21,704 nucleotides of DNA from a virus. The translations under genes and the position numbers were made by a program. The stretch spans positions 1-21,704 of the IMG/VR virus record IMGVR_UViG_3300030118_003100, one strand, 5' to 3'. This document shows positions 14,501 to 21,585 of the stretch, piece by piece; the first letter of the stretch is position 1, and every line of letters starts with the position of its first letter. A model generated the notes under the pieces. The model had not been told where the DNA came from. It made no database searches and saw only the letters and a program-made list of their open reading frames with translations.

Positions 14501-16022
14501 CTGCTATTGCTTGCCCTTCTGGTGATTGCTGTAGCATTTGCGCCATTTCTATTACTGCCTGACGCTCTGCCATGTCCCTTACCAAATGATCGGGTACACC
14601 AAACTTCTTAGCTAAATACAATGCTGTCTCTTCTGAAGATACCAGCAAGTTCATTAACTGAGGTCCGAACATTCCATTCACCATTTCTAAGAAACGGCTT
14701 ACTGCCATTATATCCTGATTTGCCTGTGCTTGTGCAAGTGGAGATATGCTTTTTATTTTTATTTCTCTACCATTAACTGTAGGCAGTTCAATGCGTCCTT
14801 GCTTGCGCAGTATATATACTACACGTTGTAATATTGGTTGCACCATTTCTGCTTGCAATCTACCAAAGGCTGCACCGATACGTCTGCTTAAATCAGCCAT
14901 ACGCTCTGCAACTTCTGTTGCTGATGCTGGTGTACGATTAGGGTCGCCAAGCATATCATTATATAGCGCACGTTTAATATTATTACGCATGTCATTTAGA
15001 ATAAGATTTGCAACATTGAAGTCACCTGCCGCACGGATTGGTTGTAGTCCTGCGCTGCCTGGCGCTTTTGGAATGACTGTGCCAGGCATGAGATTGATTG
15101 TGTCAACATTGATAATACCATCATCATCCATCTGATAAATACCAGACACAGACATCTGTGCATTTTCAAGAATTAGTTCGATAGTAAGATTAGTTGTTTT
15201 GATTGCGCTCAGTGCATTAACAAGTGGACCACGCCCATATGTTTCACCTGCTGCCTTAGACCAGCGAAAGCATACAAATGGATTAGAGCCAACGCCCTCA
15301 TAGTTTTCCATAAACAGCATTTTCTGACGATCAATATCAATCACAAAGAAGCCATATTTTTCTACATTTGGCTTATCATAAATACGACAAACAACTTCCA
15401 ATATCTTTGTCTTGGCATCTGGATTATTCTTCATCATGTTAATCATCTCAGGCGCAAGTTCTGCTTTTGGATATATAATAGTTATATCCGAACAGCGAAC
15501 TTCACGCTGACGATACACATGGTCAATCTTATCATCGGGACCACTTTCAAGAACAAGTTGTGGCAAAGGTATTGCATTAAATCTAACAGGATTGATTGCA
15601 TCACCCTCTTCAACAATTAGACAAGCTGTGCCTACAGCTAAATCAAGAAATGACTCATGCACTTCCTGACTAAAGTTTGAGTTCTGCAATATCTCAAAGA
15701 TATATTCTGTTACTTTGTCGAGTTCGTTATTAACTTCGTCAGCATCTTCTTCAGCCATTTCTGACCCTGCGATAAAATCTGCCCAACGCGCAAAATTAGG
15801 GACAAGCCCAGATTGTAAACGCGACGCAAACTCTTGGACACCAACGACTGCAGTTTCGTCAAATATTTTGTCATCTCTTCTTTGCCCCTTTGTTTCATAG
15901 TGAAACCCTGCTCTTTGAGGCAGGGCATAGTCATAGCACTCTTCATAAAGTTCTTCGAATTGCATACGCTCTGCTTTTGCTTTGCGATACTTTTCAAGAT
16001 AATATTTAGCCGTATCTTTCAT
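14478..16022 (-). CDS. Portal protein (head-to-tail connector)
   Basis: A 514-aa portal; T7 gp8 has 536 aa. The sequence follows the Head-tail_con family: N-terminal helix YYLEKYRKAKAERMQFEELY with the conserved YALPQR (about 32-37), FDETAVVGVQEFASRLQSGL, QEVHESFLDLAVGTACLIVE, FVCFRWSKAAGETYGRGP, a long helix IKTTNLTIELILENAQMS, and DPNRTPASATEVAERMADLS (about 385-404), as in other members. Twelve copies form the channel for DNA entry and exit. The ATG overlaps the previous stop as ATGA (16022-16019). The C-terminus is Gln-rich and overlaps the Bbp19-like gene. This is among the safest assignments in the window. Confidence 0.95.
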   Translation of the reverse strand: MKDTAKYYLEKYRKAKAERMQFEELYEECYDYALPQRAGFHYETKGQRRDDKIFDETAVVGVQEFASRLQSGLVPNFARWADFIAGSEMAEEDADEVNNELDKVTEYIFEILQNSNFSQEVHESFLDLAVGTACLIVEEGDAINPVRFNAIPLPQLVLESGPDDKIDHVYRQREVRCSDITIIYPKAELAPEMINMMKNNPDAKTKILEVVCRIYDKPNVEKYGFFVIDIDRQKMLFMENYEGVGSNPFVCFRWSKAAGETYGRGPLVNALSAIKTTNLTIELILENAQMSVSGIYQMDDDGIINVDTINLMPGTVIPKAPGSAGLQPIRAAGDFNVANLILNDMRNNIKRALYNDMLGDPNRTPASATEVAERMADLSRRIGAAFGRLQAEMVQPILQRVVYILRKQGRIELPTVNGREIKIKSISPLAQAQANQDIMAVSRFLEMVNGMFGPQLMNLLVSSEETALYLAKKFGVPDHLVRDMAERQAVIEMAQMLQQSPEGQAIADGTTPLS

Positions 16023-16195
16023 TTCATTTTCCTTATTTTTCTTTGAACTGCTTTTGGTAATTCTGAAAAATGAAAAAGTTTTTTACTCTTGCTTGTATGT
16101 TTTGAACCAGAATGAACATCGCCATTAGGCATTTTATGCGTACCACCAGAATACTTTGTACCATCTTTTAAATAATGACTTACTGATTTAGCCAT
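16019..16195 (-). CDS. Small basic KDGTKYSGGTHKMPNG-type phage protein
   Basis: A 58-aa, His/Lys/Ser-rich protein: it begins MAKSVSHYLKDGTKYSGGTH and continues with KMPNGDVHSGSKHT and a basic end (VQRKIRKMK). Its ATG lies 8 nt inside the previous gene and its stop forms an ATGA overlap with the portal start. The same short motif (LKDG-x-x-Y-x-G-x-x-H-K-MPNG-x-x-x-SG-x-x-H) is familiar to me from small proteins encoded next to portal genes in marine podovirus-type phages. Function unknown; the regular His and Lys could bind metal or nucleic acid. The conserved motif and tight overlaps at both ends support it as a true gene. Confidence 0.75.
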   Translation of the reverse strand: MAKSVSHYLKDGTKYSGGTHKMPNGDVHSGSKHTSKSKKLFHFSELPKAVQRKIRKMK

Positions 16196-16977: not shown

Positions 16978-18498
16978 TTATAGCCTTGCCCACAGTCCTT
17001 GTCTACGCTTTCCTTTTGGTTTTCTTGTAAACACATCATAGTCAGTACGAGCGTTAAATACCTTTGCTTGTCGTGAATTGCCTAGAACTTCGCGCCCTTC
17101 CCCTGCTCCTAGCATTAAATATTGAAGTGCATCATGTATATGAGAAAATCTATTTTTATCTGGTTTATCATCATAACGCTCACCAGATACTTGTATACGC
17201 CTATACTGATAGCCACCCTCAAAGCCTTTGATAGTTTCTTTGCATCTTTGATCAATCAGAAAGCCAGCATGTCCATCTACCATTCTATTCAATGGTGCAG
17301 ACACAGCTTCGATGCGTAAACTCACATCATTGCTTGGTGCGGGACGAGCAATTAAACCCGCCCCACGCAAAACTTGGAATGGTGTAGACTCATCAGTCTG
17401 CGCTCTAAAATCACCACTAGGGTCGCCATATATATTTACTTCGCAAGCACCATATCGTGTTGCTATCTCTTGTCTTAATATTTCAGAGAAACGCACTATG
17501 CCCATATCAAAGGCAACTATCTCTTGCAAGATAAGCCATCTACCACGCACCTTCTGTCCAAAGATAGCTGCTGGAGTCAAACCAAAATCCAATCCACAGA
17601 AGACAGGCACACCTGCAGCAACAGGTATTTCTTCTTGCGCTACATGAGTATCACGTACAAACATATTGTAGATTGGCTTACCATCTTGGATTGCACCAAG
17701 TCGGTTCATTACATAAACATCAATCCAACTTTTACTCTTACCTCTGATAAGATTTGTATAGTAGCTATCAAGCATGTTCCTTGAGTTCTCTGCATCCTTA
17801 TTAGGTAGATACTCATCTACATTGCCATCTTCATCGCGCTTCTCAACCATGCCAGGTGGTTGTGTAAAGAAGAGCCAGTTATCAGGCTTGACCAACATCT
17901 TAGCTTCTTCTGCATTTATATAATCTGGCACAGGTGCTTCACCTGACATAATAGACCACCAGTGGTCTTCTTCTGGTGCGTTAGTATCTGCAATAACACC
18001 AGACCAACTCGGTCCACCTTCACGCATACTAGGATACCTGCCAACACGCATCGTACAAGCATCAATGATAGACTTAGGCAACTCCCTTGCCTCATTTATC
18101 CATATGCCTGTCAACTCAAGTGACAGTAGTTTCTTTACATCCTCTGGTCGATCAAGAGCCAAGAAGATAACCTCAAGGTCTAGGTCGCCCTTCTTGATAT
18201 GGTGAGTGTATGGGACAGACCATGTAAACTTGCCCCAATCATTTTCTGGAAACCAATCCAGCCATGTCTTGATTGTTGTAGTTCTTAGCTGTGGATTAGT
18301 ATTACGGATAATAGCCCATCTGCTTTGACGTATACCATTTTTGTTTTTCTCTTGCATACACGCTCTGCGAAACACCTCAACAGAACAACCAACAGACTTG
18401 CCGCTACCAACTGGACCACGAATACCACGAAAGAAAGAGTTATCTTTCATAAAGTCTTTTAGTATTTCACCATCAGGTTTGTAATTAAAGTTCGTCAA
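16978..18498 (-). CDS. terL: Terminase large subunit
   Basis: A 506-aa packaging ATPase and nuclease. Walker A is GPVGSGKS (28-35). The Walker B region is LTGIWINEARE (129-139) with E136 as the likely catalytic Glu. The nuclease domain has the RNase H-like acidic residues: D304 in FCGLDFGLTPA, D359 in IYGDPSGDF, and D456 in SHIHDALQY. It works at the portal, cutting and translocating DNA. The start is TTG at 18498: upstream in frame there are only ATC and ATA before a stop at 18510-18508, and the next ATG is codon 17, just before the ATPase domain, so TTG gives the better N-terminus (TNFNYKPDGEILKDFM). It overlaps the 71-aa gene by 14 nt, and weak initiation with coupling is likely. In T7 terL is near the end of the late genes; here it precedes the portal. 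Confidence 0.95.
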   Translation of the reverse strand: MTNFNYKPDGEILKDFMKDNSFFRGIRGPVGSGKSVGCSVEVFRRACMQEKNKNGIRQSRWAIIRNTNPQLRTTTIKTWLDWFPENDWGKFTWSVPYTHHIKKGDLDLEVIFLALDRPEDVKKLLSLELTGIWINEARELPKSIIDACTMRVGRYPSMREGGPSWSGVIADTNAPEEDHWWSIMSGEAPVPDYINAEEAKMLVKPDNWLFFTQPPGMVEKRDEDGNVDEYLPNKDAENSRNMLDSYYTNLIRGKSKSWIDVYVMNRLGAIQDGKPIYNMFVRDTHVAQEEIPVAAGVPVFCGLDFGLTPAAIFGQKVRGRWLILQEIVAFDMGIVRFSEILRQEIATRYGACEVNIYGDPSGDFRAQTDESTPFQVLRGAGLIARPAPSNDVSLRIEAVSAPLNRMVDGHAGFLIDQRCKETIKGFEGGYQYRRIQVSGERYDDKPDKNRFSHIHDALQYLMLGAGEGREVLGNSRQAKVFNARTDYDVFTRKPKGKRRQGLWARL

Positions 18499-18700
18499 CT
18501 TTATGATCTACACCAAACTTTAGCATACGCTCTACCACTTCAGGTCCGATAACTGCAATCATCTTGTCAGCTTCTCTATCAGTCTGAAACTCTGTTGGGT
18601 GATATGCTAGGTGTACCTTCTTTACAATCTTTCTAAGTATCCTGCGCTCCTCATCATTCAAAGTATGTAAGAAGCCATTACTAGATGTAATCTGATTCAT
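18485..18700 (-). CDS. Hypothetical 71-aa protein next to terL (candidate small terminase)
   Basis: A 71-aa helical, charged protein: NGFLHTLNDEERRILRKIVK, VHLAYHPTEFQTDREADKMI, then IGPEVVERMLKFGVDHKVDE. Related proteins with the LxDEE...YHPTEFQTDxE...GPEVVERLLK pattern occur next to terL in uncultured marine phages, as far as I recall. It begins with an ATGA overlap with the DUF5872-like gene and ends inside the terL start. It has no clear helix-turn-helix and is shorter than typical small terminases, so a TerS role is only a positional guess; it could be a terminase cofactor. Confidence 0.6.
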   Translation of the reverse strand: MNQITSSNGFLHTLNDEERRILRKIVKKVHLAYHPTEFQTDREADKMIAVIGPEVVERMLKFGVDHKVDEL

Positions 18701-18939
18701 GTTCTATATGACCTTGTTTTTTTCGCAATAGAGCGAGGCTGTTTGGAGAACTGCTTGCCAGCACGAGTATCCTTACGTTTCTTTCTTGTTGTTGCGGCAT
18801 ACTCTGCAGCAGTAAGACTTTTGATGGCAGCACTAGGTAGGTATCGCTCACCTGTCTTAGCAGAAGGCTTGCCACTCTTGGTGCGCCATTTCTGCTTAGT
18901 CCAACTAACTAATGACTGTTGTGACTTTTTGCGAGGCAT
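18697..18939 (-). CDS. Basic DUF5872-like protein
   Basis: An 80-aa Lys/Arg-rich protein in the DUF5872 pattern: SLVSWTKQKWRTKSGKPSAK, TGERYLPSAAIKSLTAAEYA, ATTRKKRKDTRAGKQFSKQP and a basic end. This domain is found in phages and large DNA viruses; its role is unknown, and its charge suggests nucleic-acid binding. The ATG shares a base with the previous stop (TAATG) and its stop overlaps the next start (ATGA). A GGAGG lies about 14 nt upstream, too far for a normal SD, so coupling is likely. Confidence 0.72.
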   Translation of the reverse strand: MPRKKSQQSLVSWTKQKWRTKSGKPSAKTGERYLPSAAIKSLTAAEYAATTRKKRKDTRAGKQFSKQPRSIAKKTRSYRT

Positions 18940-19115
18940 TAGTTTCTATAACCGCCTCCAGCTTTTTTGTAAGCACGGGCAAGCATCTGTGCTTTACGAG
19001 CAGACCACTGCCCAGGTCTGCCGCCCTTGCCACCAGCTTTGATGCGATTAAACAAGTTCTTTCGCATTGTAGGCTTAGTGTAATTACCAGCTTCATTAAC
19101 TCTTGACTTAGCCAT
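18939..19115 (-). CDS. Small basic GRPGQWSARKAQML-type protein
   Basis: A 58-aa, strongly basic protein: MAKSRVNEAGNYTKPTMRKN, LFNRIKAGGKGGRPGQWSAR, KAQMLARAYKKAGGGYRN. The GG-x-PGQWSARKAQML-x-x-x-YK-x-x-GGGY core is a common small-protein motif in marine phages and other large-virus datasets as I recall it. Function unknown; nucleic-acid contact is suggested by charge. It overlaps both neighbours by one base through TAATG junctions, strong evidence that it is translated although the gene is short. Confidence 0.75.
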   Translation of the reverse strand: MAKSRVNEAGNYTKPTMRKNLFNRIKAGGKGGRPGQWSARKAQMLARAYKKAGGGYRN

Positions 19116-19255
19116 TACTTATTCTTTGAGGCTAAGATACGCTTTTGAAGTGAACGTGGTAGTGTCTTTTGTTTCGCCGTAAGAAGAGATTTCTTCTTCT
19201 TCTTAGATGGGCGACCAACTTGACTTCCATATGTTCCTTTTCCCATAGGCATCAT
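19115..19255 (-). CDS. Tiny basic GKGTYGSQVGRPSKK-type protein
   Basis: A 46-aa protein: MMPMGKGTYGSQVGRPSKKK followed by a basic helix (TLPRSLQKRILASKNK). It has about 14 Lys or Arg residues. The M-GKGTYGS-x-VGRP-x-KK start is a familiar motif of tiny phage proteins. The ATG at 19255 makes an ATGA overlap with the previous stop, but the second ATG at 19252 has the better distance (7 nt) from the SD AGGAG, so the true protein may be 45 aa. The stop overlaps the next start by one base. Role unknown; DNA binding is possible. Confidence 0.7.
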   Translation of the reverse strand: MMPMGKGTYGSQVGRPSKKKKKSLLTAKQKTLPRSLQKRILASKNK

Positions 19256-19494
19256 GTGTCTCCTTCTGGTCTGTTTTCTTCCTGCTGTTCCGCTATCTTA
19301 CGAAGCTCCTCAATCTCTTCCTTAGATAGCGCATCCTCAAACTTAGCCTTGTCCATTTCTTCTATCAATCCTTGTATAACTAAATATCTAACCTTAATCT
19401 CAAAAACTTTTTCTACGCTTTCTTCTTTGCTTTGTTTCTGCGTGAAATAGCGGCGGCTTTCTTTCTCGCGTCTGCTTTCGAAGATGCGCCCCAT
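19252..19494 (-). CDS. Hypothetical charged protein (start uncertain)
   Basis: An 80-aa protein of Glu, Lys and Arg without a recognised family. The reliable part is the C-terminal half: VFEIKVRYLVIQGLIEEMDK and FEDALSKEEIEELRKIAEQQ, a helical acidic segment. The first 27 codons overlap the end of the DUF6321-like gene (82 nt), and no SD precedes the ATG at 19494, so a later non-ATG start is possible. The stop overlaps the next ATG (ATGA). Its acidic tail contrasts with the basic neighbours. Confidence 0.55.
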   Translation of the reverse strand: MGRIFESRREKESRRYFTQKQSKEESVEKVFEIKVRYLVIQGLIEEMDKAKFEDALSKEEIEELRKIAEQQEENRPEGDT

Positions 19495-19715
19495 GCTCTT
19501 AATGACAGAAGTAATCTTGTTGGTCTCCCTTTTGAATCACGTTCGGGACCACGCATGTTTCCCATCCTAGCAAGAAAGGATGCGCGTCTAGGGTTATCGC
19601 CAGACTTAACTGGCGGTCTGAGTGTCCCCTGTTTGTACGACCTGCGACCCGCTGCGTTCAATCCCCCCTTCGGGTTCTTGCCCTCCTTGCGTTGCCATGC
19701 TGGTGTCTTCGCCAT
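19413..19715 (-). CDS. Basic DUF6321-like protein, GC-rich and overprinted at both ends
   Basis: A 100-aa Arg/Lys-rich protein: MAKTPAWQRKEGKNPKGGLN, AAGRRSYKQGTLRPPVKSGD, NPRRASFLARMGNMRGPERD, SKGRPTRLLLSLRAWGASSK, then a basic end. This pattern matches what I know as the DUF6321 domain, shared by phages and large algal viruses; function unknown, DNA or RNA binding likely. The ATG at 19715 has a good SD (AGGAG, 7 nt), which lies inside the 659-aa gene. It overlaps that gene by 110 nt and the next by 82 nt, so almost two thirds of it is double coding. Hand count gives 60 G/C in 100 bases at 19601-19700, far above its surroundings. Confidence 0.78.
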   Translation of the reverse strand: MAKTPAWQRKEGKNPKGGLNAAGRRSYKQGTLRPPVKSGDNPRRASFLARMGNMRGPERDSKGRPTRLLLSLRAWGASSKADARKKAAAISRRNKAKKKA

Positions 19716-21585
19716 CTAGTGACTCCTGCTCATCTTTATATCTAGTTGTATAATCATTACCACGCCAAGTAAAGGTGCTTTGACCTGCACTGCGACTACG
19801 CGCAAAGGCTTCGCCAAAACCAAGCACATCTAAATTATTTGGCCGCTCAACTTCTGGCAAAGGTGTTGCTTCAAGAACTGCGTTCATCTTATCAAGACGA
19901 GACTTTGTTAATGGGTTTGTTAAAAACTTGGGAACAGCTGCAGTCTCTTCAATGCCAAAGAAATCATCCATTGCATCAGACACAGCTTCCATAACTGGTG
20001 GTATTTTAATATCAATATTAATACTGTCATTTTGAAATTGACTAGCAAACCAATCGGTGCTTGATGTAATTGCTTGGTCAACTTGCTCGGCTAGACCCTG
20101 TGCATAACGCCTGCCAGCAACAAGGATATTATTATTTTGGCTTGGATCACTTGCATCTTTTAACTGATAGCCACCATCATTTGTACGCTTTGCAACCACA
20201 TGATTCATAATAGTATCTGATTCAAAACCAAGAAAGTTAGAACTTGTTTCCACCTCAACCGCATCTGGGTTTGCGGTAAAGTATTTATCAAGTGCATGTT
20301 TTATTGTACCAAGAGCTTCAGGAGAAAATTTTTCTGTAGTTATCTGTTCTTCTGCAATAGCGTCTGTAGATAACTCATTTTCTATAGCATCAAAAAAACG
20401 AGCAAAATAATTTGAACCAGTTTTGTTTACTGCGTCTTTATGCTCTTCACGGATAAAGTCTTCTGAATCTTTCTGCGGCGCAACAATTCTTCCTGCAGTA
20501 CGCATAGGCTGAACAAGGTCTGCAGGTGCTGGACCCAGGTCAATATAAACTTCTCTATCATTCTTTTTAGATACGCCAAAGATACCACTAGGCATAAACA
20601 TACGCTCTACACGATCAACAACTCGCTTACTCCCAGATGTGTCTGCTTCATGGAAGTTATAACTATCAACAATTATTAAATGACCTCTATCATCTATATA
20701 GGTATCTGACTTACCTAAACTTGTCTTAGCTGCCTGTTCTGGACTAAGAGAAGTAGCAATCTGTGCAAGCTGTTGAAACGTACCCATACCTGCCTGATTT
20801 CTTGCACTAAGAATATCATTGCTACCAACACGATAATCATTATAAGTGTTTGAGTATCTCCCAGCACGAGCGTTTTTAATTGCAACATCTCTAATCACGT
20901 TAAGAGTAGAATCAGTAAATTGATTTGCAGTTATAGTCATAGCTTGACCCAAATCTACCCCAACTCTTTCTGCCAATGAGATAGCTACCTGCTGGGCAAG
21001 CAATTTAAAATGGTCAGTAGATATAGCCATCTTTTTTGTCTCCTGGTTTCCTGAAATACTACCTGAAACATTAAATGATAGCGTTTCATTCTTAGTTATA
21101 TCTTGCCCTTTAACTACAGCCTTGCCAAAATCATCCGTAGGTTTGTAACCTTTTTTTGTTTTGCTTGCGTCAAAATCATATTTATCATTTACTGTAAACC
21201 CACCATCGTTAGTATTTTTAAAATTAAAAACACCTAGCAAAGTATACATTGCATAAACAGGGTCTGCAAGTGAACGACGCAACATTACAGCAGAGGATTC
21301 TTTTTTTAACCTACCACTTTTTCTATGTGTTGCAGGACTCATGCCATCAGCAAGCGGGGGATAATCTTCATACTTAATAAAAGAACGTCCATCTTTTCTT
21401 GCATTTTCTACAGCAGTGCGAAGAACATCTTTTTCTTCTTTACCAATGTTAGAAATATTAAAATCAGGTAATCTAACAGGGTCTGATGGATCAACCCCAA
21501 GCGCAGAAGTTATTGGATTTCCAAGTCGATACAGTGCATAAGCTACTGCGTTAGGCGGCAACACACTTCTCTTTGGAGCAACCAT
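19606..21585 (-). CDS. Large phage protein of unknown function (659 aa)
   Basis: A 659-aa soluble protein. No enzyme motif is recognised. The N-terminal part contains YALYRLGNPITSALGVDPSD and a segment SFIKYEDYPPLADG; a GGFTVNDKYDFD motif (about 128-139) resembles the V-x-D-x-YDF signature seen in many large phage proteins of unknown role. A conserved-looking FTWRGNDYTTRYKDE (605-619) probably ends the family-like part; residues 624-659 are low complexity (GGQEPEGG, SGSQVVQTGDTQTAS) and overlap the DUF6321-like gene. No signal peptide or membrane helix. The SD before the ATG is AAAGG, about 7 nt. Its place upstream of the terminase cluster could fit a virion or ejected protein, but this is a guess. 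Confidence 0.75.
   Translation of the reverse strand: MVAPKRSVLPPNAVAYALYRLGNPITSALGVDPSDPVRLPDFNISNIGKEEKDVLRTAVENARKDGRSFIKYEDYPPLADGMSPATHRKSGRLKKESSAVMLRRSLADPVYAMYTLLGVFNFKNTNDGGFTVNDKYDFDASKTKKGYKPTDDFGKAVVKGQDITKNETLSFNVSGSISGNQETKKMAISTDHFKLLAQQVAISLAERVGVDLGQAMTITANQFTDSTLNVIRDVAIKNARAGRYSNTYNDYRVGSNDILSARNQAGMGTFQQLAQIATSLSPEQAAKTSLGKSDTYIDDRGHLIIVDSYNFHEADTSGSKRVVDRVERMFMPSGIFGVSKKNDREVYIDLGPAPADLVQPMRTAGRIVAPQKDSEDFIREEHKDAVNKTGSNYFARFFDAIENELSTDAIAEEQITTEKFSPEALGTIKHALDKYFTANPDAVEVETSSNFLGFESDTIMNHVVAKRTNDGGYQLKDASDPSQNNNILVAGRRYAQGLAEQVDQAITSSTDWFASQFQNDSINIDIKIPPVMEAVSDAMDDFFGIEETAAVPKFLTNPLTKSRLDKMNAVLEATPLPEVERPNNLDVLGFGEAFARSRSAGQSTFTWRGNDYTTRYKDEQESLDGEDTSMATQGGQEPEGGIERSGSQVVQTGDTQTAS

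Follow-up and report, generated by a model that had tools for sequence, protein, structure and literature searches.

The 21,704-base virus record IMGVR_UViG_3300030118_003100 of IMG/VR, analysed at its full length and hereafter called the window, carries on its minus strand the late operon of a podovirus, which encodes the large terminase subunit (TerL), a T7-type portal protein (phrog_332), the major capsid protein (MCP) and tail-tube genes. The closest cultured relative found is the Pelagibacter phage EXVC031P Hodr. Directly ahead of terL lie six tiny, coupled open reading frames (ORFs), here termed g1 to g6 (Table 1), and as the first-pass annotation of the sequence had described, four of the six products (g1, g3, g4 and g5) are strongly basic by net charge. 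Two of these genes, g4 and g5, turn out to be the halves of a single domain, DUF5872, and the set to which they belong may supply proteins that bind the phage genome and are carried into the virion together with it.

From g1 to g6, successive genes overlap by 82, 4 (ATGA), 1 (TAATG), 1 (TAATG) and 4 (ATGA) bases. Moreover, g6 shares 14 bases with terL, which uses a TTG start, and g1 shares 110 bases with a 659-amino acid (aa) upstream ORF that has diverged even among near relatives. Substitutions relative to the two nearest contigs fall mostly on codon position 3, in g2 as well as in the other genes. Differences at codon positions 1/2/3 from two close relatives amount to 0/0/6 and 0/1/13 in g4, 0/0/5 and 1/2/26 in g6, and 1/2/11 and 4/5/17 in g1. 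Because substitutions concentrate on third positions, we consider the six ORFs to be genes; only the comparison of g3 with contig L007 yields too few differences (three in all) to show a codon pattern.

Table 1. The six-gene stretch and its neighbours in the window
Feature	Position	Strand	Properties
g1	19413..19715	-	100 aa, DUF6321 (PF19846), phrog_4689, net charge +24
g2	19252..19494	-	80 aa, acidic, net charge -4, confined to close relatives
g3	19115..19255	-	46 aa, GKGTYG family, AT-hook-like [KRV]GRP, net charge +14
g4	18939..19115	-	58 aa, GQWSARKAQML family, phrog_17747, net charge +14; N-terminal half of DUF5872
g5	18697..18939	-	80 aa, phrog_14910, net charge +21; C-terminal half of DUF5872
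g6	18485..18700	-	71 aa, helical, neutral (net charge -1), TerL-linked
terL	16978..18498	-	TTG start; phrog_2 (7.3e-20); TIGR01547 (5.7e-8, below cut-off)
h3	16019..16195	-	58 aa, before portal; family directly precedes g4 in other loci
659-aa ORF upstream of the cassette	19606-21585		no PHROG match

The membership of the set was assessed in 80 contigs with a related TerL, many of which are incomplete, such that gene counts are lower bounds. Upstream of terL, g6 is present in all or nearly all of these contigs, g5 in 70, g4 in 67, g1 in 50 and g3 in 39, and homologues of these five genes keep one order across dozens of contigs. Homologues of g2 occur at three loci, in the nearest relatives only, and none was found in phage records. 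In six contigs (L101, L108, L131, L132, L133 and L327) g1 and a fused g4-g5 gene lie between TerL and the portal gene, while g6, and g3 if present, stay before TerL; g6 is therefore linked to TerL and stands outside the mobile set. Accordingly, the conserved cassette comprises g1, g3, g4 and g5, with g2 confined to close relatives and g6 linked to TerL on its own; the initial view of all six genes as one unit is not borne out. The proteins of the cassette have conserved median net charges of approximately +20 (g1), +13 (g3), +12 (g4) and +20 (g5). Phage HTVC034P carries g1, g4 and g5 together, and Lederberg carries g1, g3, g4 and g5. The make-up differs between loci: g2 and h2 are private, and h3, the family of which stands directly ahead of g4 in other contigs, as well as the GLYANIH family are present at some loci and absent from others. 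The families are abundant in viral contigs, with at least 600 matches in every family scan; no role was found for any of them.

In a collection of 50,697 phage records, g4 occurs in 20 and g5 in 19, and the almost identical sets of records comprise HMO-2011-type, pelagiphage, roseophage, Methylophilales and cyanophage genomes. Linkage was scored in 310 contigs fetched through neither gene, of which 129 contain g4 and 135 contain g5. All 129 contigs with g4 hold both genes within 2.5 kb, compared to about 56 expected if the genes were independent, a count that is descriptive since the contigs are related. The gene order is constant, with g4 before g5, and g1 and g3 are often found alongside. 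Thus, the families co-occur far above chance, a result in favour of the first-pass annotation.

The strict linkage of g4 and g5 finds its counterpart in 69 ORFs where the two are fused, including those of Hodr and S-CRES1; in Hodr the fused gene occupies the same slot, between g3 and g6. Neither g4 nor g5 alone yields a Pfam match to DUF5872 (PF19197) at E up to 1. Fused homologues reach the DUF5872 cut-off of 27.5, e.g., L121 with 34.0 bits (positions 19-110 of 116) and L099 with 30.4 bits (2-105 of 116), and hidden Markov models (HMMs) of g4 and g5 match the respective halves of the fused proteins. Since the fused homologues pass the cut-off across most of the model, DUF5872 and GQWSARKAQML, initially listed as separate motifs, each represent half of a single family. 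A quick tree places the split form essentially in one clade (33 of 34 rows; Shimodaira-Hasegawa-like approximate likelihood ratio test support 96) that mixes several phage types. This tree, which is based on 133 alignment columns and leaves many forks unresolved, fits a scenario where a single fission would have been followed by exchange. AlphaFold2 models the fused domain confidently (predicted local distance difference test, pLDDT, 88; predicted template modelling score 0.59), and in BFVD a stretch of this model can be aligned to a segment of a phage protein of 1022 aa named “ParB/Sulfiredoxin”, which counts in favour of DNA binding.

Two loci display unusual arrangements of the domain. In HMO-2011 (L002, 6389-7471) a methanesulfonate monooxygenase gene is inserted between g4 and g5, and hence, the pair tolerates inserts. 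In a 105-kb viral contig, a 2920-aa ORF (L129, 7617-16376) combines NUDIX and DnaJ domains with fused DUF5872, the latter close to its N-terminus.

The families extend beyond the marine viruses to which they had first been assigned. A scan of bacterial and archaeal genomes revealed fused DUF5872 at 55-73% identity in Sphingomonas, Roseomonas, Methylobacterium, Azospirillum, Stutzerimonas, Pseudomonas and others. The distribution is patchy: in one Sphingomonas-type genus the domain is present in 15 of 61 genomes, and in the class to which this genus belongs in 5 of 289. Two DUF5872 contigs from metagenome-assembled genomes (L486 and L489) also encode DUF6321 and might derive from phages. Among the five proteobacterial proteins examined, four combine DUF5872 with a C-terminal Rho_N-like motif and one contains Rho_N alone; the best of these matches (4.7e-5, 23.7 bits) falls just under the cut-off of 24.9, and the rest are weaker. 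Rho_N is a SAP-like motif that binds nucleic acid, and its frequent presence on chromosomal DUF5872 proteins points to nucleic-acid binding. No strongly conserved neighbour was found around the bacterial genes; a UvrD/PcrA-helicase-like ORF, identified by eye without a database, adjoins them at 16 loci.

The assignment of g1 to DUF6321 proved correct, as the protein scores 73.8 bits against a Pfam gathering score of 28.5. DUF6321 is found in approximately 480 phage records, chiefly of T4-like cyanophages, and no paper on the domain was found in the literature searched. In the T4-like cyanophages Sf-CH8, S-CREM2, S-CREM1, S-SCSM1 and S-SZBM1 (protein SSZBM1_192) the DUF6321 gene is located between terS and terL; in S-CREM1 the domain makes up a stand-alone protein of 91 aa (S-CREM1_179), the gene of which is separated from terL by a single ORF. 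The domain is linked to virions by two proteomes. In S-CREM2, gp137, which carries DUF6321 (40.8 bits), was detected in the virion by mass spectrometry (MS) with four unique peptides and a coverage of 4.1%, and the virion table contains neither the small terminase subunit (TerS, ORF135) nor the TerL product (PMC10665884). S-SCSM1_29 ends in DUF6321 (2e-31), and its record reads “virion protein”, a label that the TerS and TerL entries do not bear. Virion MS of S-SCSM1 has been described, and NMNAT (ORF91), named there as detected (PMC9602691), bears the same label, which suggests that the label of S-SCSM1_29 likewise reflects MS detection. The P-SSP7 paper contains no proteome. Searches of the PDB returned no convincing relatives for g1, its P-SCSP1 homologue or GLYANIH. 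The DUF6321 protein of Sf-CH8 (L087, 6041-7249) begins with another Gly/Lys-rich stretch, KWFGKGKEGGAGGGGWDRYN, which suggests that the larger cyanophage proteins may chain several small basic modules.

The third family of the cassette is represented by g3. All 109 GKGTYG proteins contain GRP at a fixed distance in the form [KRV]GRP, and the canonical RGRP is not general. The GRP core is AT-hook-like, and the predicted binding of DNA is plausible as judged from the sequence. In cyanopodoviruses and Pelagiviruses, g3 and DUF6321 genes, mostly together with a tiny basic family, GLYANIHAKRKRI, lie between scaffold/MCP and MCP/tail genes, and in T7-like phages g1, g3 and GLYANIH are found together. 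The GLYANIHAKRKRI family is fused to DUF6321 in L474 (568-1092), L478 (2405-2929) and L481 (7998-8393), which links another uncharacterised family to the set. In several records of T7-like marine phages the GKGTYG gene has been left unannotated (L095, 6888-6956; L098, 6001-6123).

What these proteins do can be proposed only tentatively. The reading we favour, while stopping short of calling it probable, is that g1, g3 and g4 plus g5 are exchanged horizontally and expressed late, and that their DNA-binding-like products accompany the genome into the virion. These small basic proteins would be made late, together with the capsid proteins; they might bind, neutralise or compact the phage DNA, enter the virion along with it and possibly be ejected into the next host. 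Late expression, conserved charge, the nucleic-acid-binding-like companion domain of DUF5872 and the presence of DUF6321 in virions fit small proteins that coat or compact packaged DNA. Linkage, homology, fusion and the presence of DUF6321 proteins in virions are shown, while DNA binding by each protein, the packaging of g3, g4 and g5 and a role in compaction or protection are inferred. In part, this agrees with the first-pass annotation, which had suggested an accessory complex for packaging, DNA condensation or genome ejection: the linkage of the genes, their place in a late operon on the terL strand, virion-associated DUF6321 and plausible DNA binding speak for such a function, and a specific tie to the terminase is not supported, as outlined below.

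Several points weigh against the proposal that these proteins enter the virion with the DNA. Our search found no DNA-binding assay for these proteins, and no virion data for g3, g4, g5 or any stand-alone DUF6321 protein; the peptides detected in cyanophages may stem from outside the DUF6321 domain. Trypsin digests such K/R-rich proteins to very short fragments, and a negative from a tryptic proteome therefore carries little weight. The predicted DUF5872 fold has no match in the PDB, and the chromosomal copies of DUF5872 imply a cellular role that is not necessarily tied to virions. Furthermore, the shell of P-SCSP1u resolved by cryo-electron microscopy consists of MCP alone, with no other protein, and the g1 and g3 homologues are thus not ordered shell components in P-SCSP1u. 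An ordered capsid decoration protein was considered as a separate candidate; it is unlikely, given that this shell is built from MCP alone though the group has g1 and g3 homologues.

The main competing explanation, possible but on balance rather unlikely, is that the proteins are accessories of the packaging motor, which bind DNA at the motor or help the terminase with DNA ends, without remaining in the virion. This idea draws on the position of the genes. A TerS candidate, related to a protein matching phrog_2538, precedes terL by 1.4-3.8 kb in 21 of the 30 contigs with enough upstream sequence, which places the cassette between terS and terL, as is the case for the DUF6321 genes of T4-like cyanophages. 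In the near-identical contig L007 the TerS candidate stops 40 bases short of the stretch corresponding to the window edge; the cassette of the window thus most likely also lies between terS and terL, and with a separate TerS candidate most likely just outside the window, none of the six genes is taken to be TerS. Yet, closeness to terL is common and not required. In HTVC034P g1, g4 and g5 are located at 8.6-9.6 kb and TerL at 32.9-34.2 kb, i.e., 23 kb apart, and elsewhere the set is found beyond TerL, between TerL and portal, beside capsid or lysis genes, or in the capsid-tail region of T7-like phages. In contigs that extend at least 4 kb to either side, TerL lies within 4 kb of g1 in 11/20 cases, g3 in 6/12, g5 in 6/13, the fusion in 10/27 and GLYANIH in 5/19, numbers that are lower bounds since the TerL HMM was built from ten seeds only. 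The proximity that had been noticed at this locus is therefore frequent, but roughly half or more of the sampled copies lack a seeded TerL match at this distance. The constant feature is the strand, which agrees with that of TerL in 471 cases to 1. Together with the occurrence of DUF5872 on bacterial chromosomes, the separate TerS and the detection in virions of DUF6321 proteins, but not of TerS and TerL, these locations argue against a terminase-specific role.

For g6 alone, a packaging-accessory function is the likelier reading. The gene overlaps terL and directly precedes it at approximately 80 related loci, and its product would act apart from the cassette, presumably as a separate small partner of TerL, which it may contact. 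AlphaFold2 predicts three helices (pLDDT 78), for which the PDB contains no fold match. A weak likeness to DnaJ covers part of helix II to helix III. Two identities for g6 were rejected: TerS, since g6 matches no TerS family and relatives encode a separate candidate upstream, and a J-domain protein, since in the 36 columns resembling DnaJ the Asp of the HPD motif is replaced by Thr, Lys or other residues.

A further alternative, likewise on the unlikely side, holds that the proteins are late DNA-binding factors that work within the infected cell and outside virions, with the nucleoid of the host or phage DNA under replication as targets, in silencing, protection or recombination. The Rho_N/SAP-like tail of cellular DUF5872 suggests such a nucleoid or DNA-protection role, and a variable genome location combined with a constant late strand is compatible with it. 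However, DUF6321 proteins have been detected in virions, and in most phage groups the genes are surrounded by those for capsid and terminase. That these are loosely selected small late-operon ORFs with no common function, grouped by shared habitat and gene exchange, would account for the variable make-up of the cassette, but is very improbable given the strong purifying selection, the strict g4-g5 linkage, repeated fusion and conservation in unrelated phages and bacteria.

Comparison with known systems helps to place the set. The fused form of DUF5872 occurs in phages, bacteria and an algal virus, CpV-BQ1, for which a DUF5872 protein has been annotated (PMC12085832). In the window g4 plus g5 span the domain in the same order, but as two overlapping ORFs and without the Rho_N-like tail of the cellular form. 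The cyanophage proteins S-CREM1_179, S-SCSM1_29 and S-CREM2 gp137 share the domain of g1; there, DUF6321 often forms the C-terminal portion of a larger protein (400-520 aa), with Cys residues that g1 lacks. The internal head proteins IPI-IPIII of T4 are small, basic and packaged with DNA. The likeness to them concerns size and charge, whereas no capsid-targeting leader was recognised in the window proteins and no sequence relation was seen, although no test aimed at one was made. Dinoflagellate/viral nucleoproteins (DVNPs) belong to marine double-stranded DNA (dsDNA) viruses; one was identified in the virion of a giant virus, and cells also encode homologues (PMC11953307). None of the six proteins matches DVNP (PF19060) at E up to 1; if they do accompany the genome into the virion, the set would work alike but stand outside the DVNP family.

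A broader proposal, which we regard as doubtful, is that DUF5872, DUF6321 and the GKGTYG/GRP family constitute a nucleoprotein kit common to aquatic dsDNA viruses. Such a kit would be packaged with the genome in unrelated tailed phages and, in the case of DUF5872, in an algal virus; it would be passed on as a module, split in one phage clade and kept on bacterial chromosomes with a SAP-like tail. The analysis joins the families into one set, shows that a single domain, also chromosomal, is made up of two “unknown” families, and ties a third family, DUF6321, to virion proteomes. Hence, a list of domains of unknown function becomes a testable hypothesis on how marine phages may pack or protect their genomes.

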